Assembly (NCBI RefSeq): GCF_932294415.1
Contig: NC_065542.1
Location: forward strand, 44,543,942 to 44,607,941
Origin: Quercus robur
Taxonomy: Eukaryota > Streptophyta > Magnoliopsida > Fagales > Fagaceae
Direction of reading: 5' to 3'
DNA: 64,000 bases
The position numbers were made by a program, and so were the translations under genes. Positions 12,565 to 56,792 of the stretch are shown one piece after another (position 1 is the first letter of the stretch; every line of letters begins with the position of its first letter). The notes beneath the pieces were generated by a model. The model was not told the DNA's origin. It ran no database searches and saw nothing but the letters and a program-made list of their open reading frames with translations.

Positions 12565-12857
12565 TTTTTTTTTTTCTTTTTTTGAAGTGGAAATATATTC
12601 ATTAAACCAACCAAGAAAAACATACAAAGAGCCTGCAAAGCAGGACAGAGTAACATTAACTACATAGATCAGATTGCATATCAGATCACAGAAAAGACAA
12701 AACAAAGGGAGGGGCAATGCCCTTCCAAATTTGGCAATTTCCAGTTCTTCTAGCATGCTGTGCAAGCTCGTGGGCCACTGAATTGTAACTTCTACTTAAG
12801 TACTTGAAATGGTAAGATTCAAAAGACTCACAAACTTGATGAATTCCCTGAATAAGG
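12563..12857 (-). pseudogene. LINE 3' end: RNase H C-terminus and poly(A) tail
   Basis: On the minus strand this encodes the end of the RNase H domain of a plant L1-type LINE (SLIQGIHQVCESFESYHF, then YNSVAHELAQHA). That segment includes the conserved AHxLA helix near the end of such domains. A T run at 12563-12583 is the poly(A) tail read from the other strand. The reading frame stops matching a LINE beyond about 12857, exactly where the 41-kb insertion begins. The upstream part of the same RNase H domain is at 54115 onward. Joining the two restores ATGSILA followed by LIQGIHQ, with a one-base frame slip. Host: tandem unit copy 2. Confidence 0.85.
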
Positions 12858-12935
12858 GAGGGAATGTGCAAAATAGATGTGAATAGTGATTGAAAATAGT
12901 AAGTTAGGAATCGTTTGAAAGATTTAAGAAAAGTA

Positions 12936-13165
12936 ACATCTCGAGTTTTAAAAACTCGAGATTTAAGTTAAAAAGTGAGTGTTATAAAGTCGTTTTGCAG
13001 TTGTTGTGAACTGCTAAGGTGGCAAAAATTGCCACGTAGATCTCGAGTCTTAAAGACTTGATTTTACATAGTAAAAACCGAGTCTTTAAGACTCAAGATT
13101 TAATTAAACAAACGCCTGCTTTTTAATTAAATTTTGAACAAAACTCAAGTCTTATAGACTTGAGT
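12936..13165. repeat. Left-end cluster of CTCGAG palindromes
   Basis: At 12940-12964 lies an ATCTCGAGTTTT...AAAACTCGAGAT palindrome. Shorter related modules (CTCGAGTCTTAAAGACTTG and ACTCAAGTCTTATAGACTTG) follow at about 13042, 13070 and 13140. The right end of the same 41-kb element has the same set at 53850-54036. They may be transposase-binding or hairpin sites. Confidence 0.7.
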
Positions 13166-13215
13166 TTCTCTAGGACTAAGTATTCAACACGCATTCTACA
13201 GAAATTTATTTAGTC

Positions 13216-14317
13216 CACACGGAAAGTTCAAATAGTATAAAAACACCCTTGAACGTTTAGACCTCCGATTTACAAATTAACCAATTCAAGCTTTATGTCA
13301 AACAACTAGTGTGCGGAAAATGAACAAAAGCAATAAAACAGAATTGGAAAACAATCTAAGCCAAATTAAAATCACAACCCACAACAGATAATAAAAGGCA
13401 AAGATAAAAGGGAAGGAAGATGCAAACACAAGGACAACACGCGATGTGTTATCGAAGAGGAAACCGAAGCCCTCGGCGTAAAACCTCTCCGCCGCCCTCT
13501 AAGCGGTAAGTAATCCATTAGAAAATGTAGTTGGGATACATGGACAGCAATAGATCCTCCAAGCCTAATCTACCCAGTGCACCTAAGCCCTCCAAGCTTC
13601 TTGCTCCAACGAGATTGCGCCGAACCTATTTCTTTTCTAGCTTCCCGGATTCTGCTACTTGACCATAGCATCAACCAATGTAAATTAGTTCCTTCCTAAC
13701 TGCTTCCCAGAACACCAAACAGCCCTCTCACAGTAATGGATATGGTGAGAAAAAGTTTTGGTAAAATGCCTCTCAAGGGTTTAACGATAGAGAGGAAGAG
13801 AGTTGAGGAATTTGAAGAGACTCTTATGTAAAGATTGTAGATGAATCAATCTTGTTTTACTCTAGGGTTTCTCTCTCAAAATTCTCTCTGGAAGCTCTAC
13901 TTCTTTTGTGGGTATAAGGGGTATTTATACTGGGGTGAGAAAAGAATGTGAAACGTCAGGTTTTTCAAAACAGGGGTGGCTCGCGGCTTGACTAAGTCAC
14001 GAGATCCAACCGCGTGATAACAAAACGGCCAGTTGTCCTATTTTGTCCTGTAGTGCTCCAGCTAGCATGACGCTTCAACTTCTGGCATGCTTGGCACATG
14101 TGCTGCTTCTGGCGGCTTGCAGCCATGAGTCACCCGCAAGATCAAGCTGCGAGACTCTGTTTTCTTGCACACTCTTGAGCATTCAACCACTCTATCTCAC
14201 TCACTACCCTTACAACAAACCTACCTAAATATAGGGTTACTAATTGCTGAAATACAAGCAAATTTGGCACGGAATAAAGCCAACAAGATGGTTGAATAAA
14301 CTCAACCTTACACACAC
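13216..14317 (-). mobile_element. Solo LTR (minus orientation), TSD CACAC
   Basis: The LTR is 13221-14312 (1092 bp). Read on the minus strand it starts TGTAAGGTTGAG and ends CTTTCC, a non-canonical end where CA is expected. The 5-bp repeats CACAC flank it at 13216-13220 and 14313-14317. It is homologous over its whole length to the inverted copy at 21942-23046. It contains a TATA-like TATAAATACCCC on the minus strand. It sits just upstream of the transposase leader exon. No internal domain is attached. Confidence 0.85.
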
Positions 14318-14462: not shown

Positions 14463-16009
14463 GTAAAGGTTTTTTGATTTGATTGTTATTGTAGTTGGGT
14501 ATTAGTTGTCTATGGGTTTTGTCACTAAGAGAACTTTCCAATGGTTCTTAGTGTCTTTAAATCTTTTTATTGACTTCTTATCACAATTCATGTTCCCATT
14601 CTGTGCTGCCAAACGCTGCGTTAGTTTATTTGTTTTGAGTTTTGTTATCTAATTTATTATGAGTAGTAACAAAATTTATTTATTCTAAGGATTTTGGGCT
14701 TTTGACTTACCAACATATGTAAGATATAAGCACATATTACACTTGGTGTAACTTTTTTCAATGTTGCACTATTAAATTAATAACTTTCATTGGATTTCCA
14801 TGCTTGCAAAATTCGCAGATGATTAGATATATATGTAAATTTCAAGGGTTTTTTTTTTTTTGGTGCTTTAAAAATGTTCGCAAAAATATGAGTTTATGGA
14901 TTAGAATTAAATAATGTTTGAGTAAAGTGTTTGATTAAATTGAGAAAACTTTCCAATGGTTCTTAGTGTCTTTCGGTCCATGGGTATTAGTTGTAGTTTT
15001 CTACCAGATGGTTCTTTGTATTTGATTAATGGGTTAAACATGCTGCCAGCCTTAGCATATTGGAAATTCCTCTTAAGATCAACTTTAACCTACTTTCAAG
15101 CATGTAAGAAGTAAATATTTGTCCAATAGCAAGGTTAGAAATTTAAGGTAATCAAGGTTCTAGTATATTCCGTTTTGTTCAATAATAAGCTCTCTACTTC
15201 TTTTTGATAAAAGGTTAGAAAATACGCTATCTACTTCTAGTACAGGTTAATATAGATGTGTACGTGTGAAAAAAATATTATGGACTTTAATCTTGTAATG
15301 ACTTTTCACGGAATCATTACCAAAGTGCTCTGTACAGAATAGCAGAGGTTCTCTTATTCTTTTTCGAAGGGGCTTTTGTTGAGAACAGTCACAATTTTGA
15401 AGCAGATTTAATTTGTAATGAGTGTGTATTATGTGTTTATTAGGCTAAAAGGTCCACTCTGATGTGGTTATTAAAGGTAGTCTTGGAATCTAATAAAATG
15501 GTTGACTGAGATTTCAGTTGATACTAATGTCTTAAGCATGAAATATGTTGGAAATACTAAAAAGGTCTCAATTCTTTTTTTTTGGGGGGGGGGGGGGGTT
15601 GTATGTATTACAAAAAAATTTGGCTGTGTTTGTGTTACAAAATTATATGATATATCTTTTACAATTATTTAGTCCCCCATTATCTTTTGCAATTTTGTAT
15701 GTGTTACAAAAAATTGCGTTTGCAATTATCTTTTGCTTTACATGTGTTTGCCTCTCATACCATCCTGCTGTAATTAGCCTCTTGTATATAGGAAGGACAG
15801 ATGGATTTGTATATGTCCAATTGTTAAATATAGTCATACTACAGCCAAAATTTTAGGAAAAAATGTTCAGTTTGTATCATGAAAAGCAAATTAAAAAAAT
15901 TTCTCGGCCGCTTCTTTTTATTAGAAAGTTAAAGACCTGCTTCAAGTTTCTTTTAGATCAGGGAACTTGAAAATGTTTGTTAACTAGCATAGTAACTTGA
16001 CTTTAACAG
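14463..16009 (+). other. Probable leader intron of the transposase gene
   Basis: It begins GTAAAG, ends TTTAACAG, is T-rich and has no open frames of interest. A G run of 14 is at 15585-15598. The next exon starts seven bases before the ATG at 16017. Confidence 0.45.
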
Positions 16010-18818
16010 GTTCACAATGCCTGAAATTGATATAATCATATACCACGGTGGTCCGTTGAAGAATGCCAATGCGAACAAGGGATTGCCATTTGAAGGGCCG
16101 GGTATAAAGACCTATTATACCCAAATTGATCGTAGGTTAAAGACCCTTGACGAATTGAAGATGATGGTTATGGAAGAGTTGTGTGAGAATCCTGCTGTGC
16201 ATAACATACAAATTACTTATCGTATGCCAAGTGAAATCCTGAAGCACCGGATTAATTACAAGTATATGGTGATAGAAGCAGACAAACATGTGAAGATCAT
16301 GTTTGACAAGTTGGAGAGAATACTTGAAGTAATTAACATTGAGTTGTACATACAGTTGGAGCCACGTGCAGAAGTTGGTATCGAGGAAATCCAACAAACA
16401 CAAACAAGTTTACAAGTTACAGTTCCGAATGCTCAATATGAGTATTTTCCACATGTAGAGCATGATGATGTTCATGCTGATGATGATGAGGATGAGAATG
16501 AGGATGAGGATGATGATGATTATGACGATGAGGATGAGGATGAGGATGATGATGATTATGATGATGAGGATGAGGATGAGGATGATGATGATGACGACGA
16601 CTATGTTGATGAGAGTATTGCCATTGACGGTGAAGATTTTGGTGATAGAGATGAGATTGAAGACAAGATTGAACAAGGGGACTTTAGGGACTTTGAGAGG
16701 GACATTGATGACAATGAGACATTGGTCGGTAGTGAACCTAATGCAGACAATGTTCTTAGTGTCCAAAACATTACAAACACAATCCCTGCCTACTCACCAC
16801 CTGCCTTGTCATTTTCTGAAAATACTTGGGAAAATATGGTTGATTCTTCACATATTGAGACACCATTTGTGTCTACTTGGAGAGAGGGGATGAATTTGTG
16901 CAAAGGCTTGACTTTTGCCAATAAAGTGGAGGTGCAGCGCGTATTAACAAAGTGTGCCCTTAAGGAAAACAAACACTTTATGATCAGTAGGTCGATCACG
17001 ACAAAACATTGTGCGAAATGCGTGGATGAGTCATGTAAGTGGTATGTCTGCGCAGTCATGAAACCCAAGTTCCACAGACTATGGATGGTCATCGTGTACA
17101 AGGGTCCTCACACGTGTATACGGATTGGGGTGCGAAATGATGGTAGAATGATGAGTTGTAATTTTATTGCAGATGTCATCCTTAAGAAGTTATGTGAGGA
17201 TCACACTACCCCAATTAAGCATCTCAAATCTGTGATAGAGTTGAAATATGAGGGACAGAAGCCTTCTTACTACAAGGTATGGGATGCGAAACAAAAGGCA
17301 ATTGGGAAGATGTTTGGGAATTGGGAAGAGTCTTACCAAAGGTTGCAAAAGTTGCTAATGACATATATTGATCAGGATCCGACTATCCAGGTGTTCAATC
17401 GTACCACATCCACCGGTGAAGATGACACAGTATTTTTGAATTAAGTGTTTTGGTCTTTCGGTCCAAGCATTGATGGATTCAAATATTGTAAGCCGATTAT
17501 CAGTATAGATGGGACCCATCTGTATGGTAAATATTAGGGAAAGTTGTTGGTTGCAATGGCAACCGACGCTAACAACAAGGTATTCCCTTTTGCCTTTGCT
17601 ATTGTGGATTCTGAGTCAAGGTCCAGTTGGAGGTGGTTTTTACAATGCCTCAGAGATGCGATTGGCCACGTGATACCTAACGAAGGCATTTGCATAATTT
17701 CTAACCGACATCTCGGTATCAAAAACACCATTGCAAACTAGCCTAGAAGGGATGATGGAAGACCACTGGTATTTCATAGATATTGCCTTCGACATGTTGC
17801 TAGCAACTTCAACACACATTTTCAAAACTCAACTCTAAAGTCAGCGGCATTGAAAGTGGGATATGCTAGTCAGGTAGTGAAATTTTATACCATAATGGAG
17901 ACCATTAAGCAGGTGGAAATTGAGACCATTAGAAATAAGAAGAAGGTGACGGGGAAGGATGGCAAGGAAAAGAATCAAGATTATCTTCCATACACATACC
18001 TAATGGGCGAGTCTGTGGATATGTGGACCCAGTCACATGATGGTGGGAGACGTTTTGGAGCAATGACAACCAATATATCAGAGTACTTCAATGGTGTACT
18101 GAAAGGTGCACGGGGCCTTTCTATTGCCGCGTTGGTTGAGTTCACTTGGAACAAACTTGTTCAATATTTCCACGACCGTCACAAAGAATACCATTTTGAG
18201 TTCTCAGAGGGTAAGAAATGGAGTGAATATGCCTTCTCCATGTGGGATGGAAATAAGTGTAAATCTGAGAAACACTATCTTAAGCCATTTAGCAATGAAG
18301 AGCTGATATTTCAAGTAGTTACCCAACTCAACACGTGTAGCGCAGGAGGGGGAAACCACAGTTATGAAGTTCTGTTACAGGAAAGAACATGTAGTTGTGG
18401 GAAATGGCAAAACATAGGGATCCCATGTTCACATGCAATTAGAGTATGTGACTATTTACATATTGATTCGATCACATATATTCACCCATGTTATGGTTTG
18501 AACAATGCCATTAACACTTATGAGCATGCATTTGTGGTTCCTAAGTCGCAGTCATTGTGGAGGGATCCCATAGGGCCAAAGTGGTTGTCTAATCCAGAAT
18601 TGTTGCGGGCTAAAGGCCGACCAGTGAAGTCAAGAATAAGGAATGAGATGGATGGAGTAAGGAATAAGGACCGAGGACCGGGATGGCAGAGGGAGGACGC
18701 AGATTTGATAGAGAGTCAACCCAAGTAGACATGTGCACTGTGTCATGCTTCCGGGCATAATCGCAAAAAATGTCCGTAGTCCCGTGGTGCTTCCACAAGC
18801 GGTCATGTTCCACACTAG
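16010..18818 (+). pseudogene. MuDR-type MULE transposase, broken by in-frame stops
   Basis: One frame runs from ATG 16017 to about 18816. Domains in order: a PB1-like N-terminal domain (residues 1 to about 115), an Asp/Glu-rich tract (about 150-200), a MuDR DNA-binding zinc module (about 290-370, CAKCVDESC), the DDE MULE domain (about 490-700), a SWIM zinc finger (CSCGKWQNIGIPCSHAI) and a CX2CX4HX4C knuckle (CALCHASGHNRKKC). In-frame stops occur at 17442 (TAA), 17535, 17739, 18726 and 18777 (TAG), with no frameshift. First catalytic Asp is at 17508. The second, in the family motif SDRH, reads SNRH (AAC at 17703). The Glu of SEYFN is at 18081. It would catalyse excision and insertion of the element, but this copy cannot. 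Confidence 0.93.
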
Positions 18819-19766
18819 GTAGGTAGGCAGATGGCAAATACTTATGCATCGGTTAAATATTTGTTGTTCATTCCATGTTTACCTAATGTTTACTATCTTC
18901 TCTCCTAACGTGATTACTCTACGTTTTTCAGGCATGCTTCCATGGACGATGTTTTTATCGTGCGGACCACCGATCTTAGGAAAAGTGACTATGTTGTATT
19001 GGCTCTATGTGAACTTTTTGGATTTTGTTGAAAGTACTTGTAATTCTCTATTCAATGTACCTCTATGAAGATTGTGATTTGAGTAGTATGGTTAGAACTG
19101 CAAATTAAGCGTGGTTGGGCATGTTTAGAATGTTGATATTGAGAATGCCTTTTGCTGCGATGTAAGTGCAATTGTATTGTAAAACCATGTTTATGCAGAG
19201 AGCGTAAAAGTTTCTATAGTTTCGTGCGTACTGAGAACGCGTTTTGATGTAATTTAAGTGCATTTACATTCTCAGCTTCTCTGCCTCTCAATGAGTGTTT
19301 ATGGATTACATTCTCAGTTTCTTTATCTCTGTTTCTCAACAAGTGCATGCACACGTTTCAGTTTCTGGTTTGTCTGCGTGACCAGGAAAAAAATAAATAA
19401 AGAAATTCCTAGTGAATGATTTCAGGAATGAGCAGAGGAAAACAAAAATAAAAACAAAAAAATTCCCAGTGGAACTCAAGTTTCAGGAATGAACAGAGGA
19501 AACAGAGCAACCTCTCAGACTAAACAGAGCATTGATGCTCTTTTGTTCTCGAGAATTAAATACTCGAGTTCCACTGGGAATCTCGAGTTTTAAACACTCG
19601 AGTTATTTTATTTTATTTTTTTTTTTTAAAGCTCACAGTTTTTGTTCTTTTCTACAAATGAGCTTTTTAGAACTTTTTAAGGGAAAAAGTTGTGTTTATG
19701 TTTTTGTAATTTTTTTTTTTTTTTAACTACTTGGCCTCCTTTTATGTGGGGTAGATGTGAACATTG

Positions 19767-21936: not shown

Positions 21937-23051
21937 AATTCTGTAAGGTTGAATTTAATCAACCATCTTATTGGCTTTATTCCGTGCCAAATTTGCTTGT
22001 ATTTCAGCATTTAGTAACCTTGTATTTAGGTGGGTTTGTTGTAAGGGTAGTGAGTGAGATAAAGTGTTGAATGCTCAAGAGTGTGCAAGAAAACAGAGAC
22101 TCGCGGCTTGATCTCACGGGTGACTCGCGGCTGCAAGCCGCCAGATGTAGCACACGTGCCAAGCATGCCAGAAGGTGAACAGTCATGCTAGCTGGAGCAC
22201 TACAGGACAAAATAGGACAACTGGCCATACAGTTATCTCGTGACTGGATCTCGCGACTTACTCAAGTCGCGAGGCCAAGCCGCGAGCCACCCCTGTTTTG
22301 TAAAACCTGACGTTTCACATTCTCTTCTCACCCCAGTATAAATACCCCTCATACCCACAAATGAAAGAGAGGTTCCAGAGAGAATTTTGAGAGAGAAACC
22401 TTAGAGTAAAACAAGATTGATTCATCTACAATCTTTACATAAGAGTCTCTTCAAATTCCTCAACTCTCTTCCTCTCCATTGTCAAACCCTTGAGAGGCAT
22501 TTTACCAAAACCTTGTTCTCACCATATTCATTACTGTGAGAGGGCTGTTTGGTGTTCTGGGAAGCAGTTAGGAAGGAATCAATTTACATTGGTTGATGCT
22601 ATGGTCAAGTAGCGAAATCCGGGAAGCTAGAAAAGAAAAAGGTTCGGCGTAACCTCGTTGGAGCAAGAAGCTTGGAGGGCTTAGGTGCACTGGGTAGATT
22701 AGGCTTAGAGGGTCTATTGATGTCCATGTATCCCAACTACATTTTCTAGTGGATTGTTTACCGCTTGGAGGGCGGCGGAGAGGTTTTACACCAAGGGCTT
22801 CGATTTCCTCTTCAGTAACACATCGCGTGTTATCTTTGTGTTTGCATCTTCCTTCCCTCTTATCTTCGTCTTTTATTATCTGCTGTGGGTTGTGATTTTA
22901 ATTTGGCTTAGATTGTTTTCCAATTCTGTTTTATAGCTTTTGTTCATTTTCCGCACACTAGTTGTTTGACATAAAGCTTGAATTGGTTAATTTGTAAATT
23001 GGGGGTCTAATCGTTCAAGGGTATTTTTACACTATTTGAACTATCAAATTC
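21937..23051 (+). mobile_element. Solo LTR (plus orientation), TSD AATTC
   Basis: The LTR is 21942-23046 (1105 bp), TGTAAGG...CTATCA. Perfect 5-bp repeats AATTC lie at 21937-21941 and 23047-23051. It has a TATA-like AGTATAAATACCCC near 22337. It is the same family as the inverted copy at 13221-14312. The two LTRs face each other across the transposase gene but have different TSDs, so they are separate insertions. Confidence 0.9.
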
Positions 23052-23639: not shown

Positions 23640-25211
23640 TTAAAAGTCAATCGACCATACCATAACCCTTTTCAAAAGATCTTTTGCATTATTGTCATTC
23701 TTGAAGTGTTCTCTTACACGCTACAAACAGATAGAACAAAGAAGTTAGACCACAGAATTAACGAATTTGATGTTTTATAGGCTCCCTTGAGCATACTTTG
23801 CAATAGCCCCACCCTTCCAAAAAATTCACCCTATGTTTGGATGGGGCAGTTCCAAACATACCCTAAAGGATGTGGGCCAATCAAATTAAGGTCCTAGCAA
23901 TTTAATCATAGCTTCAACATGGTAATGGGTTGCAAAAGTCCAACATCATTTATCCAAAATGTGTAAAGTAGTGGCATCACTCCCCAAAGTGATGGGGAAT
24001 CAATCTACCTAAGAAGCATTAATTAGAGCTAAATGGATAAATGGAAACAACATACCTCTAGTATCTTATTGAAAGCCTTTGCCAAGGCTGGTTTAAGATC
24101 AGCTCGATGTAGCTTTCCACTTTCATAGTAAGCAACCAATTCTTCAAAGCTTTCGAAGCTCTTGGATTGTAGAGAAAACTTACATTGGAAGAAAACAATT
24201 TGAGTTACTATTCCCAATGAAAAATGATTTTGGAAAAATAGCTCAAGCAACTATAGAAATTACTTAAGGAGCACGCACTTTGAACAAGATGCAAGGGTTG
24301 ACCATCATGTGAAAAGGTAGATGTCGTAGCATTAACTAAATAAAATAAGTAAAGCTTTCATAATAAAATCCTTATGATTTACTTATCACCACCATTCTCT
24401 GCACTGCGCTCTATTACAAACTTTTTAAACCAAGATAAAATGAGGTACTTCACATACTCCAAGCATGGATTCCCTTCCACAATATCTGGAGGACAGTATG
24501 CTCTCTTTATCTTCAAATTTACTTTGGCCTACAACATGGAGGCAGACTAAATCTAAGGTTAACCTCGTTTTATAATCCACTATCCTTATGCTATGCGCAA
24601 CTAATAAAGAAAACACAATGTAACCCCTAAATGGCAATTTGATACCCCTATACATGCACCCTACCTCGTCATCTTCCATAAAAATTGAAGATAGTGGATC
24701 ACTTTTTGACATCTTCTCCTGACCTTGTTGTAAACTGGGTAAAATGTTTGTAAATTACCAGTAAGTAAAACAAATAAAGACCACACAACTATACACAAAA
24801 TGTTACAGGATACAAAAATAATTAGACAAATAGTCAGTATAAAGAATTAGGAACATATGGTGTGACAAAATAATAGGCTTGTTTTTCCTCTTCATGTCAG
24901 CAGAGTACTCTCTTGCAAGTACATTCACCTTTCGATGATCCATTCCCAGTTGGCAAATGTCGGCCTATTTATTTTATAAAAAATTCAGACAGTTGAAAAA
25001 AAAATTGTTTTTCCACAAAATCAAATGGTTCATTCACAAACTAGAAGTGAAGAAGGAAGCACCTTCAAGAAAAAAACACATAAGCACATTGCATGCATGG
25101 GTAGAAAATTTGTGCTGCAGTGAACTCTTCCTCATCACTTCGACCCATAATGTGACCACACCTACAGCAAAATATAATAGAAGTAAAAATAACGACCACA
25201 TCACCAACATA

Positions 25212-25579
25212 TCAATATATTACTAAAAGTTGAAACGTAGTATTTAATGTTGCTACGCTTCCATTGAGCCACGTCAGCAGTTATGTCATTATCAATTTTT
25301 TTTCAATTTTTTTATTATTAAATTTTCAATTCCATTTTAACTTTTTATATCCCCACTACTCTTTACCTTAACTTTCTTCAACCTTTCTCATTCCATTTCC
25401 ACTTTTCATATCCCCACTACTCTCAATATTAATATTATTCTATCTTTTTATCTTCCTTTATTTTTTACTCTTCTTATTCTTATCCTCATGCTATAAAATT
25501 GTCATTCTCCCTCTTATTCCATGCATAATTTCTATTTTTCCACACACAAAAGCCCCCCCCCCCTCTCTCTCTCTCTCTC

Positions 25580-25616
<37 letters not shown>

Positions 25617-34753: not shown

Positions 34754-34809
34754 ATTAACTTTTACCGAAAAAAATAGAAGAGCCTCTGACGCGCATGCTC
34801 AGAGGCTAG

Positions 34810-43953: not shown

Positions 43954-44019
<66 letters not shown>

Positions 44020-44029
44020 TTAATGATGT

Positions 44030-44094: not shown

Positions 44095-44242
44095 ATCAAA
44101 TCAAATCAAATCAAATAAAAAAACAGCTCTAACAAGTAACAACTACAATAAAGGGAAAATTACGAAATTCCCAAACAAAGTTTCTAAGATGCAACCCCAC
44201 ATCAGAATTTTCACATCAAACATCATAAACTACGGACACCTT

Positions 44243-44819
44243 AGCATCCACAACCGGTTTTGCTATCCCATCTTATTTTACCATTCCAAAAAGCTACTTT
44301 ATTAATTATGCCATACCATTTTACAATACTCCCAACATCCCAAAACTCTATTTTCCTCTTCTACTCATTAAAATAATATATCTTTGTAATAAAATATATT
44401 TTTTCCTTTTTTGTTTTTTCTCAATTTTCTCCCCCGCGTCCCTTCCAGAATCCTCCATTACTTTACTTTTCACCTTCTTCCAGCCTCCTCCTCCAATCCA
44501 TCATCCATATCAACCCAACTCCTTCACACAACTCCTCCATCATCCATATCAACCCAGATCGACGAAACAGAAAAGGAAAAAAAAAAAAAAACCATCACGC
44601 CTATAACAACGCCACAGCCACCACAACGCTGATCACATATACCAGCAAACCCAGAAAAAAAAAAAAAAAAACAAAACAAAAAACCATTAACACCCACGCC
44701 GATCACAACGCCACAGCCACCACAACGCCATAGCCACCACAGCTCCACCGATCTCGCCACCCACCAATCTCTGCCACGCCACAGCCACCACAATGCCGAT
44801 CACATACCAGCAAACCCAG

Positions 44820-44871
<52 letters not shown>

Positions 44872-45010
44872 CCCATTAACACCCACGCCGATCACGCCAC
44901 AGCCACCACAACGCCATAGCCACCACAGCTCCACCGATCTCGCCACCCACCAATCTCCGCCATGCCACAACCACCACAACGTCGATCACATATACTAGCA
45001 AACCCAGAAG

Positions 45011-45056
<46 letters not shown>

Positions 45057-45546
45057 ATTAACACCCACGCCCACTGAACCACCGTCATCAAAACCCACGA
45101 TCTCCACCGTTGTCAAAACCCACACCTCCAAAGAAACCCACCAGCCTAGCCTCGTCGAAATCACTATCGGAGCCATAGGAGCTCCAATTCAAACCCATCG
45201 GAGCCACGCCGACCCATCCGATTTCACCATTGAGGAAGCCACGGGGTCTTGGGTCTGAAGAGAGCAGAGAGTAGATGAGAAAGAGAGAAGGAAGAGAGAG
45301 AAAAGAATAGAAATAATGAGAGAGGAGAGAGAAATTCCCGGTTAAAAATAAGGAGAGAGGATTAAAAAATTAATTTTTTTTATACCATTCAGCTACAGTA
45401 CCATCTTACATTTAAGATGGTACTGTAGCTGTATGCCAAAAAAAATTTAACATTTCCCATATGGCTTTCCAATTGCTGAGCACATTTTGGGTTTAAATGC
45501 CAAATGTACCTTACATTTGGCATTTGGCCCTCCAGCTGCGGATGCT
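44243..45546. mobile_element. TIR element containing polyA-linked tandem repeats
   Basis: The left end (GCATCCACAACCGG at 44244) and the right end (GCGGATGC at 45538, read inverted GCATCCGCAGCTGG) form short TIRs with T/A-rich flanks. A second internal palindrome, CAGCTACAGTACCATCTTAC and its inverse, lies at 45393-45432. A PIF/Harbinger-like origin is possible, but the TSD is ambiguous. No transposase. Confidence 0.45.
44590..45075. repeat. Tandem ~190-bp units with A runs up to ~50
   Basis: Three successive units contain CCATTAACACCCACGCCGAT, ACGCCACAGCCACCACAACG, GCTCCACCGATCTCGCCACC and ACCAGCAAACCCAGAA. Each is closed by an A run (about 17, 50 and 44 bases). Pro/His-rich open frames here follow from the repeat. 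Confidence 0.85.
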
Positions 45547-45589
45547 CTACAAGCTAAAGAGAATATCACCTACAAAACACTGAAAGAGT

Positions 45590-45627
<38 letters not shown>

Positions 45628-45676
45628 CAAGAATCTAAACTCCAAATAGATATTACAAAACCCTTAAGTCACTCAC

Positions 45677-45736
45677 TTCATCTGGTGGAAGCGGAAACAA
45701 CTGATGATACTCTTCACTCTTCAATGACGTTGGAGA
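45677..45736 (-). pseudogene. GRAM/VASt-like (VAD1-type) exon
   Basis: A 60-bp stretch bounded by ATTACAG and GAA|GTGAGT encodes SPTSLKSEEYHQLFPLPPDE. The SEEY.QLF.LPP.E signature is characteristic of the start of the GRAM domain in plant VAD1-like proteins, which bind membrane lipids. Only this exon is recognised, so it is probably a stranded gene fragment. Confidence 0.5.
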
Positions 45737-45753
45737 CTGTAATAGAAAAGTAG

Positions 45754-47049
45754 AAGAGCTAAATAATGTTAGAAAATAACATTCAAAACATATCTCCTTA
45801 TCAACAAAACTGAACTGTGTCCCTCATTTGTTACATATTTCATATTCCCATCTATGAGCTATGTTCTGTATCTGTGACATGTTAAGCATTGCAAAGTGTG
45901 TTTGGGTTAATCAATTTACCCTAACACATGCTTCGCATTTATACTAACAACTTTAGTACATTATTACACATTTACCTCTTAACCTAAGAAGCATGGACAC
46001 AAACACAGCACAAGACATAGTGACATAACAATTCTGAAAAAAATAGCACAAGACACAACAGTAACATAGCAATTAATTAATTAATATTTTGTGTATTTTA
46101 CATTTTTAAACAAGTTTAATGTTAGGCTTTTGTTAATGAGTGTTGTAAGAGCAAAACCTTTTTTTTTAGGAAGGGCTTGAAACTTCGACGTTGTGGTTAA
46201 TAGCCACATACTCTAAGCTCTAAGAGCAAAAGTTAAGGTGCATTCAGCTTGTTTTACTACAAAAAGCCTTATTCCCAAATTTTGGGATTGGCTAAAAATC
46301 CTCAACAGATTAGTTAGCATCAGCCACATGTATTTTTTTTGTTCACAGCTTGTTTGACAGAGAGAAAATTTGATAAGCCCGGTCTTCAAAAAGAAAATAA
46401 TTCAAAGCCTCTTCCGGAAGCCACTGACTCTCAAACCATCCAAAGCAACCAAAAAGAAAATGAAAGAAGAAGAAGAAGGCAGAACATATGAAGGCAACTA
46501 ATGGCAAGAATGCTGATGCGATGAGAGCAGCAGTGAAGGTCTAAGACCACTGCCAATGGGCTGAGACCAGTGCTGGCCACGTCAAAAATCCCACTCTCTT
46601 TTCCTTTTTCTTTTTCTTTTTTAAAAAATTGATTTCATCTCTGTGTTGCAATTATGTCTGAAACATGTCTTGATTGTGTCCAAAAAGAATCTTTGGACAC
46701 CACATCAACACATAAGCAACCGTCTCTAAGGCATGTCTATATCAAACATGGACACGCTAAGCTTTTTAAATTGTTCGTGCTTCCTTACTCTTAACATGTA
46801 AATACTACTCATAACACAATCACTCAAACTAGGACATACATATCATATAATCCCAGCTGGCCATATAGTAAATCCAATCAAATCTTGCATAAGGGTTTAG
46901 TAAACGTATCTGCATATTGAGCTCCTATAGAAACATATGGCATGACAATCACTCTATTTTCCACTTTTTCCTAACAACATGGATTGTTTTGTAATTTACA
47001 AATATAAAGCAACACCAAAACAGCAGTATAACAAGTTATAAAAAGTCAC
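45754..47049. other. Spacer, no supported gene
   Basis: AT-rich. 46255-46330 includes AAAAAGCCTTATTCCCAAATTT, a diverged copy of the dispersed motif at 39590. Nothing else is supported. Confidence 0.35.
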
Positions 47050-47151
47050 CTTTTTATCGTTGAAGAAGTTGGCATCAAATAACTCAAATGTACATCTAAG
47101 GGATGCAACGTCATTACTTTTTTCCGGACACTCACCATTCTTCTTACTGTC
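47050..47151 (-). pseudogene. Exon-like fragment, family not recognised
   Basis: 102 bp bounded by TTTGATCAG and AAAAAG|GTGACT encode 34 residues, including KSNDVASLRCTFELFDANFF. The stretch is in frame and compact with clean splice sites. It might belong with the GRAM-like exon downstream, but I cannot show this. Confidence 0.35.
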
Positions 47152-47477
47152 CTGATCAAACAACACAAGATTAATCTATAACAGAATGTGGTAGACAAGC
47201 AGCTTACCTGTACTTTGCCTTATAGTTTAATAGGCGTTTCTTGAATGTGAAACTATCCAAATGTACCTCAACTTTCTGATGGAACATTTTCCAGATTTTT
47301 TTTATAGGTTCTCACCTCTTTTATTTAAGTTAGGGTGCAAAAACAAATGGAGTTTAGCACCACAGTAAGTACTTAAAGCATTGGTGATTTCCAGTTTAGC
47401 ATAGACTGACATAGAGTGACTACAAAGCATTGACATAGAGTGACACCACTAAACAAGATAGTTAACAAACCTCTTTT

Positions 47478-50400
47478 TCAAGGTTCACGAATTTTGCGAT
47501 TTTTAACCCTCGTGTAATGTTTGGGCGGGGGAGGAGGCTGCGGTGCACCATCCTTAGGCTCATCATCGTGTTGCAAAAAGGATGAATTTATAAAAGAGCC
47601 ACTACTAAAGGATGAATTTATAAAAGAGCCATTACTGAAGCATAAAGATTGATTAATCTCTAATCTTACAAAGGGCAGCTCCATCCATCAATTAAAAGAA
47701 TGCAGTAATGCATATTGAGAAGTCGATATTATGGTCCAATTCCATGACTTTAGCACTTACTCAAGGTTCACCAATTTTGTGTTTTTTAGCCCTCGTGTAA
47801 TGTTTGCGCGAGGGAGGAGGCTGCGGGGCATTATCCTTGGGCTCATCATCGTGCTGCTAATTCCATTAGATACATGCAATCAATATTCGGTATAATGATA
47901 AGAATAAAGTGAACTAGAAAATATATTATTACGTTCTAATTAATGTTATCATACCATAGAGCTGCCTCGGTGTCTTATTTTGTGTCCACCTGTCCCACAA
48001 GTGGGTGCTCTTCTAGTGCGTTGCGGTCTACCTCGTGGGGGTGAGGGCTGATGGGGGGATGCTCGTCCGGTACATCAATATGTGGCTGTAGAGTGTCAAT
48101 CCCAACCGGAGGTCCTAGAGGGTCAGATAAGGATGCAGTAGGTGGGTAATGATGCTCTATGTAGAGGCCAGGAGTGGGTGCAGTAGAGCTGGTGGGTGGG
48201 TATGAGGGTGTCTTGGGGAGTATAGGAGGGGTCAAATTTTGATCAATACTGACATCAAAATTGGGCTGCAAAGGTGGGCTGGGTGAAGGGACCTCGGGTT
48301 AAGGAGATGCATCTGGGATGGGTGGAGGGACCTCAGGCTGAGGAGATGCGTGTGGGATGGGTGGAGGCATCTCAGGACTAGTTATAACCCAAGGGGTTGT
48401 TGCACGCCGACCACGGCCCCTGACTACACTTGTGCTTGGGCTTGCTGTAGCAGGCCGACCACGACCCCTAGCTGCGCTTCTGCTTGGGCTTGCAGTAGCA
48501 CGCTGACTACGGGTCGGTGTACTTACGGGTGCTGCGCTTGTGCTTGGGGTTGCAGTAGCTGCTAGTTCAATCTCATGCCTATTGTTTGCCTGCCCATTTG
48601 CTGCAGGACCACCACCAAGGCCAGCCACAATATTTAGGACACGTCAGACATGGTTGTGAGCTTGGCTGCCTTTAGGAAGCATCTCCAACAGCACTAAATG
48701 GCTTTGAATCTGAAACGGAGAAAGAACCAGTACAATCAGATTTGAGACATTTATGTATCAATTAATGAATGGATAATATAATACTTATTAATCTACTCAA
48801 ATACTCAACTCAAAACTAACAGTTCTATTAGAATACTATATGTATCAGAAACTCTTAAATTAGATGTCAGTCAAATCAAACCAGATTTGCTGAAAAATTC
48901 ATAGAAATTGATTCTACGTTCATACATGTACTCAAGTAAAATGAAGTAGGCAATAAAATGTAATTAGAACACATTACCATTATATCTAATTTAGCGCTTT
49001 TGCGGTCGACATACTTTCGAGTGACCGGACGGTACCATAGGTAATAAGCATGATTACGGGGCATCTCACCAATCTGAGGAGGTGCATGACAAACTTGTTG
49101 TCGTCTCATTTCCCATGAAATGATATACGGTCCATGCTCCTCCCTCCAATTCTTTTCCACCTTCCCATGTAAGTCTATTTTATGCAATCTATCATCGTAG
49201 ACAACATCGTCAGGCCGCTCTTGCGCCCAGCCAAACTGTCGAAGGACACGGTCCGGGTGGTGTCTCTCTACTATGCAAAAACACACAAGTGGCACCCTTG
49301 CTGTCCACGTATCCCTCCCTGCAACGCAGAACTCAGGAAGGTGGCCGAAGTCTGCCTCGTATGGCTGCCACACAATCTACAATAGAAACAAAAAACAATT
49401 ATCATAACATCTTAAAATGTGAAACAAGGGAGAATACATAGATAAAGGGAAAAACAAAAATTATAACAAAAGATATGTTAAAGGATGAAGCAATCATATT
49501 CTTAAGGAAAATTATCATAACCAAACAAAAATTTTGAATATTATTACTTGGTCTGGTTGCATTGTAACTAATTGCTCACGATAATGGATCAAGGCCGTGT
49601 TGGATGGCCTACTCTTCGAGCTTGGCACCCGCACCCATCTACAATTACGAGCGAATAACATAAGAACGATTATACAATTTAGTTACTAAGAAGAGTACAT
49701 TGCATAACACACTAAATATTAGGAAAAGACTTACTTAAATGCAAGTGGAGCATATGGCCATGGGCCATAATCACATCCAGGTGGGGGCTCTATCCTCAGG
49801 CACAAGAATGGCAACCTTGCCCTTGCCCAATATTGGACCAAGGTGCACGCCCCACCAATCTGTGATGCCCCTTTCTCGCTTGCCCGACACAACTCTCTGT
49901 ACAACCAGGCCAGGCAACCACTACCCCAACTATACTGTGGCGTATCACAAAGGTTGCGCATGAAGTCCAAGAACATTAGATGCACCCGATCTCCTGACTT
50001 GTCCATGAAAAGTTTATCCCCTACTAGCGCAAAATATAGCACCGGGCATACTGGTGTATCTACATCTCCATTGCGTCATGAGGCAGTGGTGCTGCAATGG
50101 CCTCAACAAGTCAGCTGATGAGAATTCTTTGCCCCACCAAAGTTTTATTGTCATTCGGCGGAGTAAAACCAAGCAAGTCCCTACACAGTTGACTCCAATC
50201 CCCATCCACCACAACAGTCGGCCCAACCAAAACCTCACCGTCTATAGGAAGTCCGAAAATTACCACCACATCTTGTAGGGTGATTGACATCTCACCATGT
50301 GGAAGATGAAACGTATGAGTCTCCGGCCGCCATCGCTCAACTAGGGCCGATATTAGGCAATGATCTATCTCTCTAGAAGGGGCTCTAAACAATCCTTCCA

Positions 50401-50731
50401 TCCTTAGCAATTTGATAATGTCAATCACTCGATCATCTTGCATCTGAACGTTTGCCATCTCCTTAGTGTGACCACGACACGTAAGTGGGCCCGAGTCCTA
50501 CAAAATTGATAAAAATTATAGCGGTTGTTAGAACTAGAAATACAACTTTGAAAGAACTTGCTAACTAAAAGTCAAAGACAACGTAAAAATTAAAGCGGTT
50601 GTTAGAACTAGAAATTTCACCTCGCCATTCCAAATGGCCTCTGATCGATGATATGGTTGTCGCATCAACAATGACCTCTGAAGCGGACCGAGGTGTAAGA
50701 TCTCTAGCTCCTCATCGATCCGAGGCTCCAT
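47478..50731 (-). pseudogene. Plant mobile domain (PMD, MAIN-like) gene of the giant element
   Basis: Exons on the minus strand: 50621-50731 (ATG; MEPRIDEELEILHLGPLQRS), 49735-50497 (ALVERWRPETHTFHLPHGEM, SITLQDVVVIFGLPIDGE, YSWGSGCLAWLYRELCRA), 49548-49638 (KWVRVPSSKSRPSNTALIHY), 48978-49376 (VWQPYEADFGHLP, YYLWYRPVTRKY) and about 47975-48713 (Pro/Ser/Arg-rich tail), plus a short last exon. This is the PMD of MAIN/MAIL1-like proteins, often annotated as PP7 long-form homologs and shared between host genes and transposons. Exon 2 has stops near 50117 and 50065 and a one-base shift near 50040. Exon 5 has stops near 48648 and 48299. The last exon is duplicated (about 47765-47860 and 47478-47580). 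The cellular PMD function is nuclear; its role in transposons is unknown. Confidence 0.9.
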
Positions 50732-53541
50732 ACTACAAAGAGTGCTACTGTGAGATATTAATAGTGTAGGGGCAAAGGAGTGCTATTCTACATGCAAGGA
50801 AAATCTATACTGAAGAGTAGCTTATTGGCATTATTTAAAAAAGGATGCTAAAACAATGATGAGTTAATAAGACAACTTTGTTTACAGAAAACTCAAAAAC
50901 AATGATGAGTAATTATGTAAAAATGCTTGAGAAGCATTAATAAACACAATGTGCTTCTTCATATAGTAGTTCATTTTGTTGTTCTAAAAACACATGGAAA
51001 GATTGTCAAATTAAGTAGAATGTAATAGAAGGTTTAACTTCTTCACTATAAAGATCACTACTAGAAACACCTGTCCATAGAATCTTCAGCCATAATGTTG
51101 AGTGGGATTAGCTACAGTAGAGATGTTTTCTAGTAATGGCGGAAGAATTGAGCACATTTGACAAATCAAACTGCTTCAGACTAGTAAAAACTGTTAAAGG
51201 ATCCTTTAATTTTTCTAGTTTCATAGGATGGCAGAGGATAGCACCAAAATGCAGTACCAAATTGATAGAAAGAATGAGTTTACGACTTGGAAAGATGGGC
51301 AAGGCTAAGTCTCTTAGAGCAGGCTGGGGTTGTTTCAACTCTTCAAGAGACAAAATCTTGGAAAATGCCTCTTAGTTATGCTTTCTTGTTGATTATAAAA
51401 GATGACTATACTATTTTATTGATAAGTAATTATAACAGATGACTACAATATGCACTACCTTGTCTATTTATAGTTACACAAGGATGCATGCCATTGGCTA
51501 ACTGCAATGCTTTAAATAAATATATATATATATATATATAAGTAATAAAGATTTATGTACTGTATGTGGGACCTACACAATGTGAGTGTGATAGTGAATG
51601 GTCTTACTAGAGTACCAATGTAGAACAAGGCAATTGATTCTTCAATTTTTCATTTTATTTAATTAAACACAAGCTTGACCAAGTTGAGATTTAATTGGTT
51701 TGGTCAAAGTAAACCTGGAGTGGGAATATGGATTATATTTTAGTAGTAGGAGGCTACTGGTTAATAAGGGCTAAGGAATGGCATCATTAATATTGCAGTG
51801 ATATCGTACTGATAATTGCTATTTGATAAAACCTATATCACTACGTTTTAATACTAATTAGTTGCTAACAAATACTATTAGATTTTCTTTTGAGTAATCT
51901 CATTAATTCATTGGATATTTTATATTTCACATATCAAATGATTCATCCAGTCAAACAAATGTGGTTTCAGTCAATGTGCCCATTAATTTAAAATAAAAAG
52001 CAAGTCCACCTTTTAAGGATTCAATTCATACATAAATGACCTGCTACTGTAAAATAGAATTTTCTTCAAAAAATGTAAGCTTGCAACCTACCCCAATTAA
52101 GCAAACTACTATAGCTTCTATTTCTAGAAGTTATCACGGTATGTTTTATTCCTAATCATTGTTAGTACTATTAAAAGAAAATTACTATTTGAGAGAGGTT
52201 TGTGTTCTTATATTGAATTATTTTTAGTAATAAATTATAAATTAGGACAATATTTATCTAATCACCCATGTAAAACCCTTTTTTTTTTTTTTCATATTTG
52301 CTTCCCATGTTGGGAAGATTAAAAGTATGAACCCAGATGGAAAATAATAATTTGACCACTTTTTTTTTTTTCTTAATTTCAACTACTCCATTCTACCAAA
52401 CATGGGGAAAAAATCAATCTTTCATTTTTTGTTTACTGAGCTTGAGCCATCTCATTGGAGACCATTTGTCAACATTTGAGACTTCATAGCAGAACTATCA
52501 TCATATGATTCCAGAATTACTATTTTATTAGCACCAAGTAGGGTTAAGTGGTTAACCAGATTTAGTTTGTTGCAAGTCTTTTTGTTCTTGGTTCTTAGCC
52601 CCCATAAAAAAGAGTGGGGTTATAAGTGCTTAACCAGCATAGCTATAGTGAGTTGAAAATCTCTTTGTGTGAATTATGATAAGAAAGACATAATTGTTAA
52701 TCTATGCCAAACTATAAGAAACTCAAAGCGTAAAAGCTAAAGCGAGACACAAGAACAAAGTCATCCCCACAAAATCAAAAGGTTAGTGGAAGATTCATAG
52801 TCCACCCCCAAAAGCTTTAGTATTCTTCAATCTTTAATCTTCACACCATTCACTACCTAGTTTATTTATTAAATAAACTATAGTGAGATAATTGTAATAA
52901 AATAATTATATATATATATTTGGATGGATGATTGGATCAGATGGTTTCAAAAAACTATTAACCTCAAACTCAACGCAACCCAAAATTTTTTTTTTTTTTT
53001 TTTTCAAACCCAATCTATCAATCTATGGAAACCAAACAATGACTCATTCCTTATTCCCATGGCTGAACCAAATGTGGCACAACCCCAAAACCATGTCCAC
53101 ACTCAAATACAGATGTTCTGGTGTAAGTTTTCATTTTTTTCAAATGAATATTCTCTCAATTATTACTTCACAACTCATACACTGTTCATAGAAGCATTTC
53201 ATCAAACCCATAATTTGAATTACAAACCCACAAACGAAAATACATACAGAAAATTAAAACAAACCCAAAACAAATCAGTGAAAATACCATGAAACAAGAT
53301 ACACAAACAAATCAAACAAAACCCACAAACAAATCAAATGAAACCCAAACAAACTAGATTAAATATCAATGTAATCCAGATATTAACAATTTTTACACTA
53401 TCCAACAATTCGAATGCTCAATTAGTTAAAAAAAATTAATTTTCCAAACAACCAAACAGAATAATATACATGCATTCACTGAAATGACATGAACCACCAA
53501 AACCCAGAAAGATCCGAAATTGAAAAACGAAATAGGTAACA
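50732..53541. other. Right flank of the giant element, no gene recognised
   Basis: AT-rich. An 80-codon plus-strand open frame at 51136-51375 has no domain that I know. An (AT)n tract lies at 51521-51540 and T runs at 52280 and 52987. Probably the upstream region of the PMD gene. Confidence 0.4.
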
Positions 53542-53599
53542 TCATGAAATTCCAAAACCTAAGATTGGAGTTGGAGAAAGAGAGAGTACCTTCGGCGGA

Positions 53600-53800
53600 T
53601 GGTGGGTCAATGGGAGCAGTACTGAGTTTGAGTGGCTGACTGTCAATGGGAGCAGCACTGAGTTTGAGTGGCTAAGTGTCAATGGGAGCAACACCTTCGG
53701 CACGGTGAGTTTGAGAGAGCGAAGTGTCTGAGAGTGAGTTGATTTTGAAATTTTCACAGTAAGGGGATGAGTTTGAGAGAGCGGAGTGTCTGAGATTGAG
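53600..53800. repeat. ~45-bp tandem repeats near the right end
   Basis: The unit GTCAATGGGAGCAG.ACTGAG then TTTGAGTGGCT is repeated about 2.5 times (53605, 53641, 53687). GAGTTTGAGAGAGCG.AGTGTC then CTGAGA occurs twice after it. Confidence 0.75.
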
Positions 53801-53847
53801 AGATGTTGAAAGGGTCTGAGAATATAGATTGTTTTAAGTGGTAACTG

Positions 53848-54036
53848 AAACTCGGTTTTAGAAGAAAAAAACGTTAAACAGAAACCGAGTTTATAAAACT
53901 CGATTTTGGAAAGCGAGTTTTATAAACTCGCTATCCAAGTGGAAAACTTTGGCCACGTCATCATATGAAAAACCACAAAAACGAGTCTTAAAAGCTCGAT
54001 TTTTAATTGGATCTCGAGTTTTAGAAACTCGAGATG
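53848..54036. repeat. Right-end cluster of CTCGAG palindromes
   Basis: Modules AAACCGAGTTTATAAAACTC, GCGAGTTTTATAAACTCGC, ACGAGTCTTAAAAGCTCG and, at 54011-54035, an ATCTCGAG...CTCGAGAT palindrome. The last has the same arms as the palindrome at 12940-12964, and AATTAAAAA/TTAAAAA follows in both when read inward. This is the best evidence of terminal symmetry of the 41-kb element. Confidence 0.7.
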
Positions 54037-54114
54037 CTAGTATTATATATTCTTTCGTAACCGGGCAACTAACGAAATTCTTAGCATATTACAGTTATTT
54101 AGAAAGGGTGTTCT

Positions 54115-56792
54115 TGAATAAGGTGGCCAATATGCTCCCCGTAGCTTTATCATTAACTGTTTGAATAACTACCAGAGCATCAGATTCAACAATAATCCGA
54201 GGCAGCTGAAGCTCTTGAGCAAAAAGGACACCTTGCTCCAAAGCAAAAACTTCTGAAAGCTCTACAGAAAAATAAGACTGAAGCAGCAAGCACAGAGCAG
54301 CCACTACTTGACCATTGAAGTCTCTAATAACAACACCCACACAAGAAGAACCTTCTTGTTCTGAAAAAGCACCATCAACATTTACTTTAAAAACTCCAGG
54401 AGGGGGTGGGCTCCATCTAGAAGAGGTAGGCCTTACTAAGCCAAAATCCCAACTAGTAGAGCATGTAAATTCTTCCACAGCATTTCTTGCTCTATGCCAA
54501 ACTTGGAGAGGAGAAAGACCACCCTCCTTATGCACTATACTATTTCTGTTAGACCATATGGCCCAAGCCGTGGCAAAGAAGAGCTCCAAATCTTGAAGAG
54601 TTAAGTGAGAGAGGATAGATAGAGTCGAGTCTAGGAAGGAATTTTTAAATCCTTGGGTGTGAAGAGGATTTTCAAGCCAAAAGTCCCAAACCAAGGATGA
54701 GAAATCACATGTAAAAAGAGCATGATCAACAAATTCAGCATCATTTCCACAAACAGGGCAGGCCATATTTTGAGAAATCCCTCTTCTAAAAATGGCTTCC
54801 ATCGTAGGGAGACCATTGACACAAGCTCTCCAAGCAAACACCATTTTTGTTGGCAAGTGGAGATGCCAAAGCCGCTTCCACAAGGGCTTACAAGGATCCC
54901 CATTAGAACTTTCACCATGATCATTTGCCCTTACCATGATCATTTGCCCCCATTAGACCGTGAGCTACATGATAGGCATTTTTTACTGAGAATTCTCCAT
55001 GCTTATTTCCAATCTAGATTATTTTGTCTTCTGGAAGGGTGCAGCTTAGAGGAATCTTCAAGATTGTTTTTGCTTCGAATGGGAGAAAGGTTGCCCTAAC
55101 CAAATCCACATTCTACCATTTTGTCATTGGGTTTATGAGAGATGAGACCATTGGGAATTGGGGAATAACATTTGGGGGGGAGGGGGGGGGGGGAAATGAC
55201 CTTGTAGGTGGACGGGGTTGGCAGCCATTTGTCATCCCATATGTGAATTAGTTTCCCGTTGCCCACTCTCCAACGAGTTCTCTCTCTAATAATGTCAAGG
55301 CTGCTATGTATGCTTCTCTAGGAGTATGATGGGGAGTTACCAAGCTTAGCATTTAAAATATCTCCAGAAGGGAAATATCTTGATTTAAGAATCCTAGCCA
55401 CAAGAGAGCTTGGGTTTTGCAGAATTCGCCATAACTACTTAGCAAGCATTGCTTTGTTAAAAGCTTGTAGATTCTTGAACCCCATTCCACCGCTTACTTT
55501 CTGTTTACACATTGTTTTCCAGCTCACCCAACACATCTTTGCTTCTTGTTGCCTTTGGCCCCGTCAGAAACTTCTCATCATACTCTCAATTTCTTCACAT
55601 AGGCTTTGGGGAAGAAGGAAGCACCCCATAGTGTATGTGGGAATTGCTTGAGCAACTGCTTTTATAAGGATTTCTTTACCCCCCATAGAGAGAAGTTTAT
55701 CCTTCCACCTGGCTAACTTTTGTCCAATCCTCTCTTTGAGAATAGAGAAGATTTGTTTCTTCGATCTACCAATGAAGGATGGGAGGCCTAAGTATCTCGT
55801 GTGTCTAGAATCCTGCATAGGGCCAAGAGTAGCAAAATTCTCATCCTTGACTTCTTGAGATGTATTGGGGCTAAAGAAAATGGAGGATTTCTCGATATTA
55901 ATTTTCTGACCCGAGGCTTCCTCATAGTTCTGGAGGATTTGCTTCAATACTCGACATTCCTCAGCACTAGCTTTGCAGAAGAGAATGCTATCATCCGCAA
56001 ATAACGAGTGACTCTTGGGCAGCCCCTACATATAGAAATGCCTGTCCAACTATGGTTTCGGGCTGCCTCGTGATAAGAGCAGAAAGCCCTTTAGTACAAA
56101 TAAGGAAGAGAGTTGGGGAGAGAGGATCCCCTTGCCTAAGCCCACGGGAAGGAGTAATGTTCCCACAAGTAGCACCATTTATTAAAACAGAAAAAGATAC
56201 CGAGGTGATACACCTCATAACAAGATCCACCCACTTGGAACTGAAGCCTAATTTCTCCATAACTGCCTTAATAAAGCACCACTCAACTCTGTCAAACGCC
56301 TTACTCATATCAAGTTTGGCGGCCATGTAGCCTTCCTTGCCTGCATTTTTGTGGTTTAGAAAGTGCATTAACTCAAACGCCACAAGCACATTGTCAGTAA
56401 TAAGCCTGTCAGAGGTGAAAGCATTTTGATTTTCAAAAATAATATGAGGAAGTAGGGCCTTAAATCTATTTGCAATGGTTTTTGATATGAGCTTGTAAAC
56501 AACATTGCACAAGCTTATGGGCCGAAAATCAGCCATCTTTTTGGGATTATTAATCTTTGGGATGAGAGCAATATTGGTTCTATTAAGGCTAGCCATAGAC
56601 ATATTACCATTAAGAACATTCAAAACCATATTAGTAATGCTACAACCCACTATATTCCAGTATTTTTGATAAAAGATGGCAGACATACCGTCCAGGCCAG
56701 GTGCTTTTGTGGGATGCATCTGTTTGAGGACAGTGGCAACCTCTTCCCTGGTGAAGTTCTTGTTTAGACTTTCATTCATCTCTTCAGTCACC
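54115..56792 (-). pseudogene. LINE 5'-truncated part: RT, zf-RVT, RNase H
   Basis: On the minus strand: a reverse transcriptase core (56791 to about 55560) with TKAPGLDGMSAIFYQKYW, FRPISLCNVVYKLISK, KLDMSKAFDRVEW and GLRQGDPLSP. The catalytic FADD follows near 56000 after a frame change. A zinc-binding RT-associated domain (PVCGNDAEFVDHALFTC, about 54740) and RNase H (KVNVDGAFSEQEGSSCVG, about 54370; ESDALVVIQTVNDKATGS, about 54160) come next. Endonuclease and 5' ORF are absent (truncated at 56792). Frameshifts and stops make it inactive. Its 3' end is at 12563-12857, displaced by the giant element. Confidence 0.93.
55154..55193. repeat. G-rich tract in the LINE
   Basis: Runs of G (8 and 12) broken by A at about 55171-55193. 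They lie within LINE coding sequence and probably reflect later slippage. Confidence 0.7.

Follow-up and report, generated by a model that had tools for sequence, protein, structure and literature searches.

The stretch under study (termed the window) is a 64,000-nucleotide piece of the Quercus robur genome (GCF_932294415.1, NC_065542.1 44,543,942-44,607,941, forward strand) and contains at 12858-54114 what is very likely one giant Mutator-like DNA transposon with two genes, inserted in a single event and belonging to a family abundant in this genome. The 9-bp sequence TGAATAAGG is present exactly twice in the window, as the left target-site duplication at 12849..12857 and the right one at 54115..54123 (both plus strand), its reverse complement does not occur there, and the two copies enclose 41,257 bp. 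The sequence on either side belongs to one long interspersed nuclear element (LINE), with the part upstream of the insertion at 54124..56803 on the minus strand (Pfam RVT_1, zf-RVT and RVT_3) and the 3' remainder at approximately 12574-12848 on the other side of the element. Taken singly the LINE halves match positions 1-82 and 90-123 of RVT_3 (PF13456), and fused with an X at the joint they match positions 1-123 (E=8.6e-27), which together indicates one RNase-H domain split by the insertion. The duplication around 41,257 bp and the interrupted RNase-H domain had both been proposed in an earlier interpretation made without database searches (the sequence-only reading) and are borne out here. 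That interpretation also held that rejoining the LINE restores ATGSILA plus LIQGIHQ; both peptides are found, but their frames are 1 nt apart and no single unbroken frame results.

Three further copies in the genome, E19 (C2:94.0 Mb, 24.8 kb), E17 (C2:93.0 Mb, 24.1 kb) and E21 (C37:8.7 Mb, 23.3 kb), were read over their full length and are collinear with the window element. The coding part found in the element consists of a transposase, a PMD gene and gene pieces only. The MuDR-type transposase gene lies on the plus strand at 15996..18815 with the Pfam domains DBD_Tnp_Mut and SWIM, and the PMD gene, composed of several exons, lies on the minus strand at 48038..50497 (Pfam PMD and exon map). 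The minus strand of 24050..24754 carries captured exons of tyrosyl-tRNA synthetase, identified through their E21 counterparts, whose minus-strand pieces match this enzyme in PDB (4.5e-7 and 3e-9) and score under the cut-off in Pfam. The transposase, the antisense PMD and this captured host piece are features of the family, as the sequence-only reading had supposed for the window element. With a transposase present beside the host piece the element differs from a Pack-MULE, in which host pieces are carried without one. Of the three domains that mark the transposase of a Mutator-like element (MULE), namely MULE/DDE, MuDR DNA-binding and SWIM, the window has DBD_Tnp_Mut and SWIM, and E19 has all three over the Pfam cut-off (MULE E=5.3e-17). 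The E17 and E19 transposases are each one open frame of 936 codons (929 amino acids from the first Met in E19), and that of E21 is broken. The window transposase has several in-frame stops, three of them in 17391-17760, and an Asn in place of the E19 Asp in IISDRH, which from the motif we take to be the second catalytic residue. Together with the stops and a shift in PMD exon 1, these lesions mean that the window copy is inactive, and the idea of an autonomous 41-kb MULE fails for this copy because both genes are broken. An Asp/Glu-rich repeat in the N-terminal part of the transposase (window 16462-16612) differs in length among E19, E21 and the window.

The two ends of the element were used as queries (left, 12858-13210; right, 53760-54114) against the window's own genome (786 Mb, 42 contigs), and the best 40 of 570 left-end and the best 40 of 745 right-end candidates were scored, so that all copy numbers for the ends are lower bounds. 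A pair is defined as a left and a right end on one contig no more than 45 kb apart. Among the best 40 by best 40 matches there are 24 pairs in the orientation of a single element and none in the other, compared with about 0.05 expected by chance, which leaves 23 further loci besides the window that carry both ends correctly oriented. The sequence-only reading would have been overturned had no other locus in the same genome shared both ends, and this did not occur. Most of the best 40 left-end matches begin at query position 1. The distances within pairs range from 4.8 to 41.3 kb with a median of 23.6 kb (n=24) and are approximate because many matches begin some bases inside the terminus; 13 of the 24 span at least 20 kb, the length class of giant transposons (>20 kb; PMC6431247), and 11 fall below 20 kb. 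A scored transposase match is present in 16 of the 24 paired elements, reading inward from the left end in all 16, with a stop-free 936-codon frame in four. The outer flanks of the right ends are unmatched among 27 loci (L021-L047) except for two short pieces, and among the left-end flanks of 20 loci five pairs share pieces of 82-116 bp and L007/L008 share 501 bp, a local duplication. Target-site duplications were read by eye in 10 testable elements. They match at 8/9 or 9/10 or better in six of the eight pairs with both ends fetched from the end searches, and at 9/9 in E17 and E19, so that eight of the ten have a duplication within the 8-11 bp of MULEs; the match is 9/9 in the window, E17, E19 and L014/L033, and 8/9 or 9/10 in four more. 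Two very short loci, L017 (681 bp) and L018 (591 bp), are non-autonomous derivatives with both ends, filled with CCTATAGTGRCGTTTT-like repeats, and their duplications match at 9/10 and 7/9, respectively.

Only 15,676 of the 41,257 bases are matched by E17, E19 or E21, and the size at insertion therefore cannot be taken from the present 41 kb. The segments 13221-14312, 21942-23046, 25212-27802, 29909-34755 and 50786-52033 are absent from all three copies, and in the 10.5 kb of 36933..47477 (no strand assigned) just 58 bases are matched. The segment at 13221..14312 (minus strand) is a nested insert resembling a solo long terminal repeat (LTR), with a 5-bp duplication CACAC by eye, and is absent beside the left end in L002-L016; a second solo-LTR-like insert with the duplication AATTC, also by eye, is at 21942..23046 (plus strand). 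These two inserts form 1.1-kb internal inverted repeats that were considered as the terminal inverted repeats of the element and rejected, as they are solo-LTR-like and missing beside the left end in L002-L016. The insert at 25212..27802 (plus strand) has Helitron-like ends, running from TC to CTAG between A and T. A nested insert of LTR type occupies 29909..34755 (plus strand); its terminal repeats number three, each about 0.75 kb long, and its duplication, by eye, is ATTAA. Its interior is divided into two parts with a 74-bp tandem array in each, and the whole resembles a tandem LTR-internal-LTR-internal-LTR product. The insert at 50786..52033 has neither an assigned type nor a strand. The 41 kb of the sequence-only reading thus holds as the present span, but much of this sequence is absent from other copies and four parts look like nested insertions; the intact copies read in the subfamily of the window are of 24 kb and a copy of a sister subfamily is of 39.8 kb.

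At a locus so heavily invaded, smaller unrelated elements could also have become nested by chance, with one 9-mer fortuitously bordering the outermost ends on both sides, a view that the nested inserts and the small matched fraction would suit. This explanation is extremely improbable and is rejected, as the matched 15.7 kb occur in the same left-to-right order in E17, E19 and E21, and both ends are arranged likewise at the 23 other loci. The giant two-gene MULE of transposase plus PMD put forward in the sequence-only reading is upheld by the same paired ends and collinear copies. Outside the element, a near-perfect 70-bp palindrome at 10600-10741 of the window is probably an unrelated small inverted-repeat element.

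Both termini, as delimited by the best 40 genome matches, are degenerate inverted ends annotated on the plus strand, with a CTCGAG palindrome at 12940-12960 in the left end (12858..13220) and at 54013-54033 in the right end (53016..54114). The CTCGAG sites at 12940/12955 and 54013/54028 are placed 82-83 bp inside each terminus, confirming the like distance that had been noticed at both ends. Compared with shuffles, the window ends score z=9.8 as inverted repeats over 170 bp, and those of the short copy L017 score z=9.0 over 170 bp and z=3.7 over the outer 80 bp. Long, highly similar terminal inverted repeats of the TIR type are missing from the window ends, and the short or dissimilar terminal repeats are those of non-TIR MULEs (definition as in PMC3903597). 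One of CTCGAG, CTCAAG or CTTGAG occurs 83-87 bp inside the terminus at 18 of 20 left-end loci and at 98-102 bp at all 20, and 81-83 bp inside at 28 of 30 right-end loci. The perfect 21-bp form CTCGAG-N9-CTCGAG is found in 25 of 30 right ends, whereas only 11 of 20 left ends have it. CTCGAG sites number 10.5 per kb within the outer 300 bp, compared with 0.31 per kb in the flanks. All sites of E19 (25/25) and E21 (23/23) fall within three clusters, at the left end, in an array behind the transposase and at the right end, where about 1.6 and 1.3 clustered sites, respectively, would be expected by chance. In the window element 9 of 13 sites lie within these clusters, and 19548..19602 (no strand assigned) is the remnant of the array behind the transposase, which has 12-13 sites in its E21/E19 counterpart.

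The association of the PMD gene with the transposase extends beyond the window. Of the 23 other paired elements, 13 contain PMD exon 1, antisense in all 13 and open in 11, and 12 of the 23 have both genes. Searching from the genes themselves, with the best 105 of 989 transposase places and the best 148 of 1499 PMD places scored, 74 of the 105 transposases have a scored PMD within 45 kb compared with about 1.8 neighbors expected by chance. The nearest PMD is downstream and convergent in 71 of these 74, and one of the three non-convergent cases (C37:19092395) has a convergent PMD farther away. The median distance from transposase to PMD is 16 kb both for transposases of at least 73% identity to the query (34 pairs) and for those of 63-71% identity (37 pairs). 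An internal, antisense PMD gene, as in PMD-carrying plant MULEs, is thus seen in 13 of the 23 other pairs and in 71 of the 74 neighbors. PMD exons are very numerous in the genome (1499 candidates, of which 148 were scored), and many have equal scores at about 62% identity to the query, which suggests recent bursts. The ratio of nonsynonymous to synonymous substitution rates (dN/dS), computed for E21 versus E19 and for the window versus E19, is 0.27-0.55 and 0.32-0.70, respectively, for transposase pieces, 0.40 and 0.36 for PMD exon 1, 0.59 and 0.22 for exon 3 and 1.0 for the last PMD exon; two captured synthetase pieces taken as a control give 0.45 and 0.37 on only 5-7 changes.

An alternative is that the PMD gene is a passenger, a captured host gene with no role in the life of the element. 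MULEs do capture host genes, the dN/dS of the last exon is 1.0, 10 of the 23 other paired elements have no scored PMD match, and Abermu MULEs lacking the antisense open reading frame still moved (PMC9168764). A passenger would not readily explain why, across two subfamilies whose transposases are only about 64% identical, the PMD lies downstream in convergent orientation in 71 of 74 cases, nor why exon 1 is open in 11 of 13 paired elements, and this alternative is considered rather unlikely.

Other large copies bear on whether the family moves at this size. In the 18.9 kb of non-overlapping matches counted, identity between E17 and E19 is about 98.8%, with a further piece of 97% identity outside that count, and 13 of the 2808 positions of their transposase frames are different. 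Their flanks are unmatched, each has its own perfect 9-bp duplication and their PMD exons are open; they are unlike in one unmatched stretch, E17 13682-16482 (about 2.8 kb) and E19 14594-17141 (about 2.5 kb). In this E17 stretch, which E19 lacks, a 253-amino acid frame (L058, 14188-14946, minus strand) gives nothing in Pfam and nothing convincing in PDB, and a suspected likeness to VPS8 was not confirmed. A second subfamily, with a transposase about 64% identical to the query, is represented by copies on C40 and C5 whose left flanks differ; toward the transposase they share 99.3% identity along 7.1 kb, and toward the PMD gene 99.8% along 16 kb. From its coordinates the C5 copy (C5:68095543-68135310), read in its outer parts, measures 39,768 bp, and its 10-bp duplication, CTCCTACTTC, is perfect. 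In the C40 copy a frame of 937 codons is open, with MULE and SWIM over the Pfam cut-off and the DNA-binding domain under it, and a PMD exon is open as well. In this subfamily the right end is repeated internally, immediately upstream of PMD exon 1 (about 7221 of joined L061+L064), with approximately 9-12 kb more before the real right end; such elements could grow, among other ways, by using a more distant end. The C5 copy (L062, L063, L065) seems to be inserted in a glycosyl-hydrolase-31-like gene, as the frame adjoining its right end resembles Gal_mutarotas_2 (E=2.3e-5, under the Pfam cut-off).

An alternative account of these sizes is that a MULE moved while small and was enlarged in place later, or that the big copies are segmental duplications. 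The window copy is indeed inflated by later inserts, 11 of the 24 paired elements are under 20 kb, L007/L008 have a common flank and E17 and E19 differ by an unmatched stretch. Against this, E17 and E19 have the remainder of their 24-kb structure in common, at about 98.8% identity over the 18.9 kb counted, while their flanks are unmatched and each has a perfect 9-bp duplication, and the C5 copy of 39,768 bp (outer parts read) has its own 10-bp duplication and a left flank unlike that of its C40 sister, making growth in place or duplication very unlikely.

For the window locus, the interpretation as one insertion of a giant two-gene Mutator-like transposon is supported by the paired ends, the duplications of 9-10 bp, the transposase of MuDR type, the PMD gene convergent with it, the captured host exons and the order of parts shared with three other copies. 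Several observations weigh against it. The outermost 80 bp of the window ends are alike only weakly (z=2.8 compared with shuffles), and two of the ten elements read for duplications, L019/L034 and L010/L041, have no clear one. No scored PMD match is present in 10 of the 23 other paired elements, one of them of 30 kb, and 31 of the 105 scored transposases have no scored PMD within 45 kb, the window transposase being counted among these although a broken PMD is present. The dN/dS values of the genes (0.22-1.0) are not separated from those of the captured fragments (0.37-0.45), and because this control is similar the ratios fit function of the transposase and of the PMD core and do not prove it.

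The order of events at the locus would begin with the older LINE, followed by the transposon and then by hits from two solo-LTR-like, a tandem LTR-type and a Helitron-like insert, leaving the element in its present inactive state. Judged from motifs and domains, the transposase of intact copies may recognize the degenerate ends, probably via the palindrome about 82 bp inside each, and would integrate by a staggered cut, with the CTCGAG arrays as candidate binding sites. The PMD protein belongs to the domain family of the host silencing factors MAIN and MAIL1 and would most likely aid escape from silencing. MAIN and MAIL1 act in silencing (PMC7156037 and PMC8616336), and possible anti-silencing use has been raised for genic PMD captured by MULEs (PMC5418596). 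A more speculative proposal, unlikely to hold in full, is a giant autonomous MULE clade still transposing at 24-40 kb, in which PMD would be a dedicated counter-silencing factor whose targets are the CTCGAG-palindrome arrays, both terminal and behind the transposase, end recognition would be coupled to DNA methylation through the CpG of each palindrome, and internal right-end copies would allow use of a more distant end with the gain of kilobases of neighboring DNA.

Large cut-and-paste DNA transposons are considered poor movers, with an efficacy that falls over 6 kb of cargo (PMC6431247), and the dozen members of 23-32 kb beside the window copy, with near-identical copies of 24 and about 39 kb, make this size limit testable. 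The steady pairing with a gene of the MAIN/MAIL1 family offers a natural system for asking if PMD proteins are used by transposons to counter silencing, as speculated in PMC5418596. A survey of maize and rice admitted coding MULEs of up to 30 kb including nested insertions (PMC3903597), and individual large MULE copies may therefore well have been noticed earlier; searches of one open-access library turned up no published MULE family of 24-40 kb. The gene content, that of a PMD-carrying MULE, is known, and a family moving at 24-40 kb and the constant arrangement of palindromes are new. The window copy is an old, broken member of this family, and other copies of 24-40 kb look intact and recently moved.

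Maize MuDR is far smaller than the family described here and has long inverted repeats, and we know of no evidence that mudrB is a PMD gene. The likeness lies in the two convergent genes, mudrA and mudrB, one of which is the transposase (PMC6446971 and PMC9168764). Abermu MULEs similarly combine a transposase with an opposite-strand open reading frame and 9-bp duplications, the barley element being 8.2 kb with inverted repeats of 138-145 bp and the longest row of Table 1 about 19 kb (PMC9168764). Pack-MULEs also carry host gene pieces, but are mostly 1-2 kb, have no transposase and include none over 7 kb in the work cited in the available portion of PMC6431247. Plant MULE groups 42 and 45-50 contain a PMD gene (Dupeyron et al. 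2019, PMC6446971, Table 1) and share with the present family a MuDR-type transposase with SWIM, 9-bp duplications and an often antisense PMD, and MULE-Solanaceae_1 (group 42) is likewise without inverted repeats. In contrast, none of these groups as described in the available portion of that paper is near 24-40 kb, and neither a fixed palindrome at about 82 bp nor arrays behind the transposase are part of those descriptions. In VANDAL21/Hiun of Arabidopsis, likewise a MULE, the ends are poorly conserved, additional genes are present and a short motif forms arrays in the non-coding parts, although the motif there is YAGTATTAY and the protein VANC, compared with CTCGAG palindromes and PMD here (PMC5735166). 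By analogy, the CTCGAG clusters resemble the motif arrays bound by VANC in VANDAL21 (PMC5735166).

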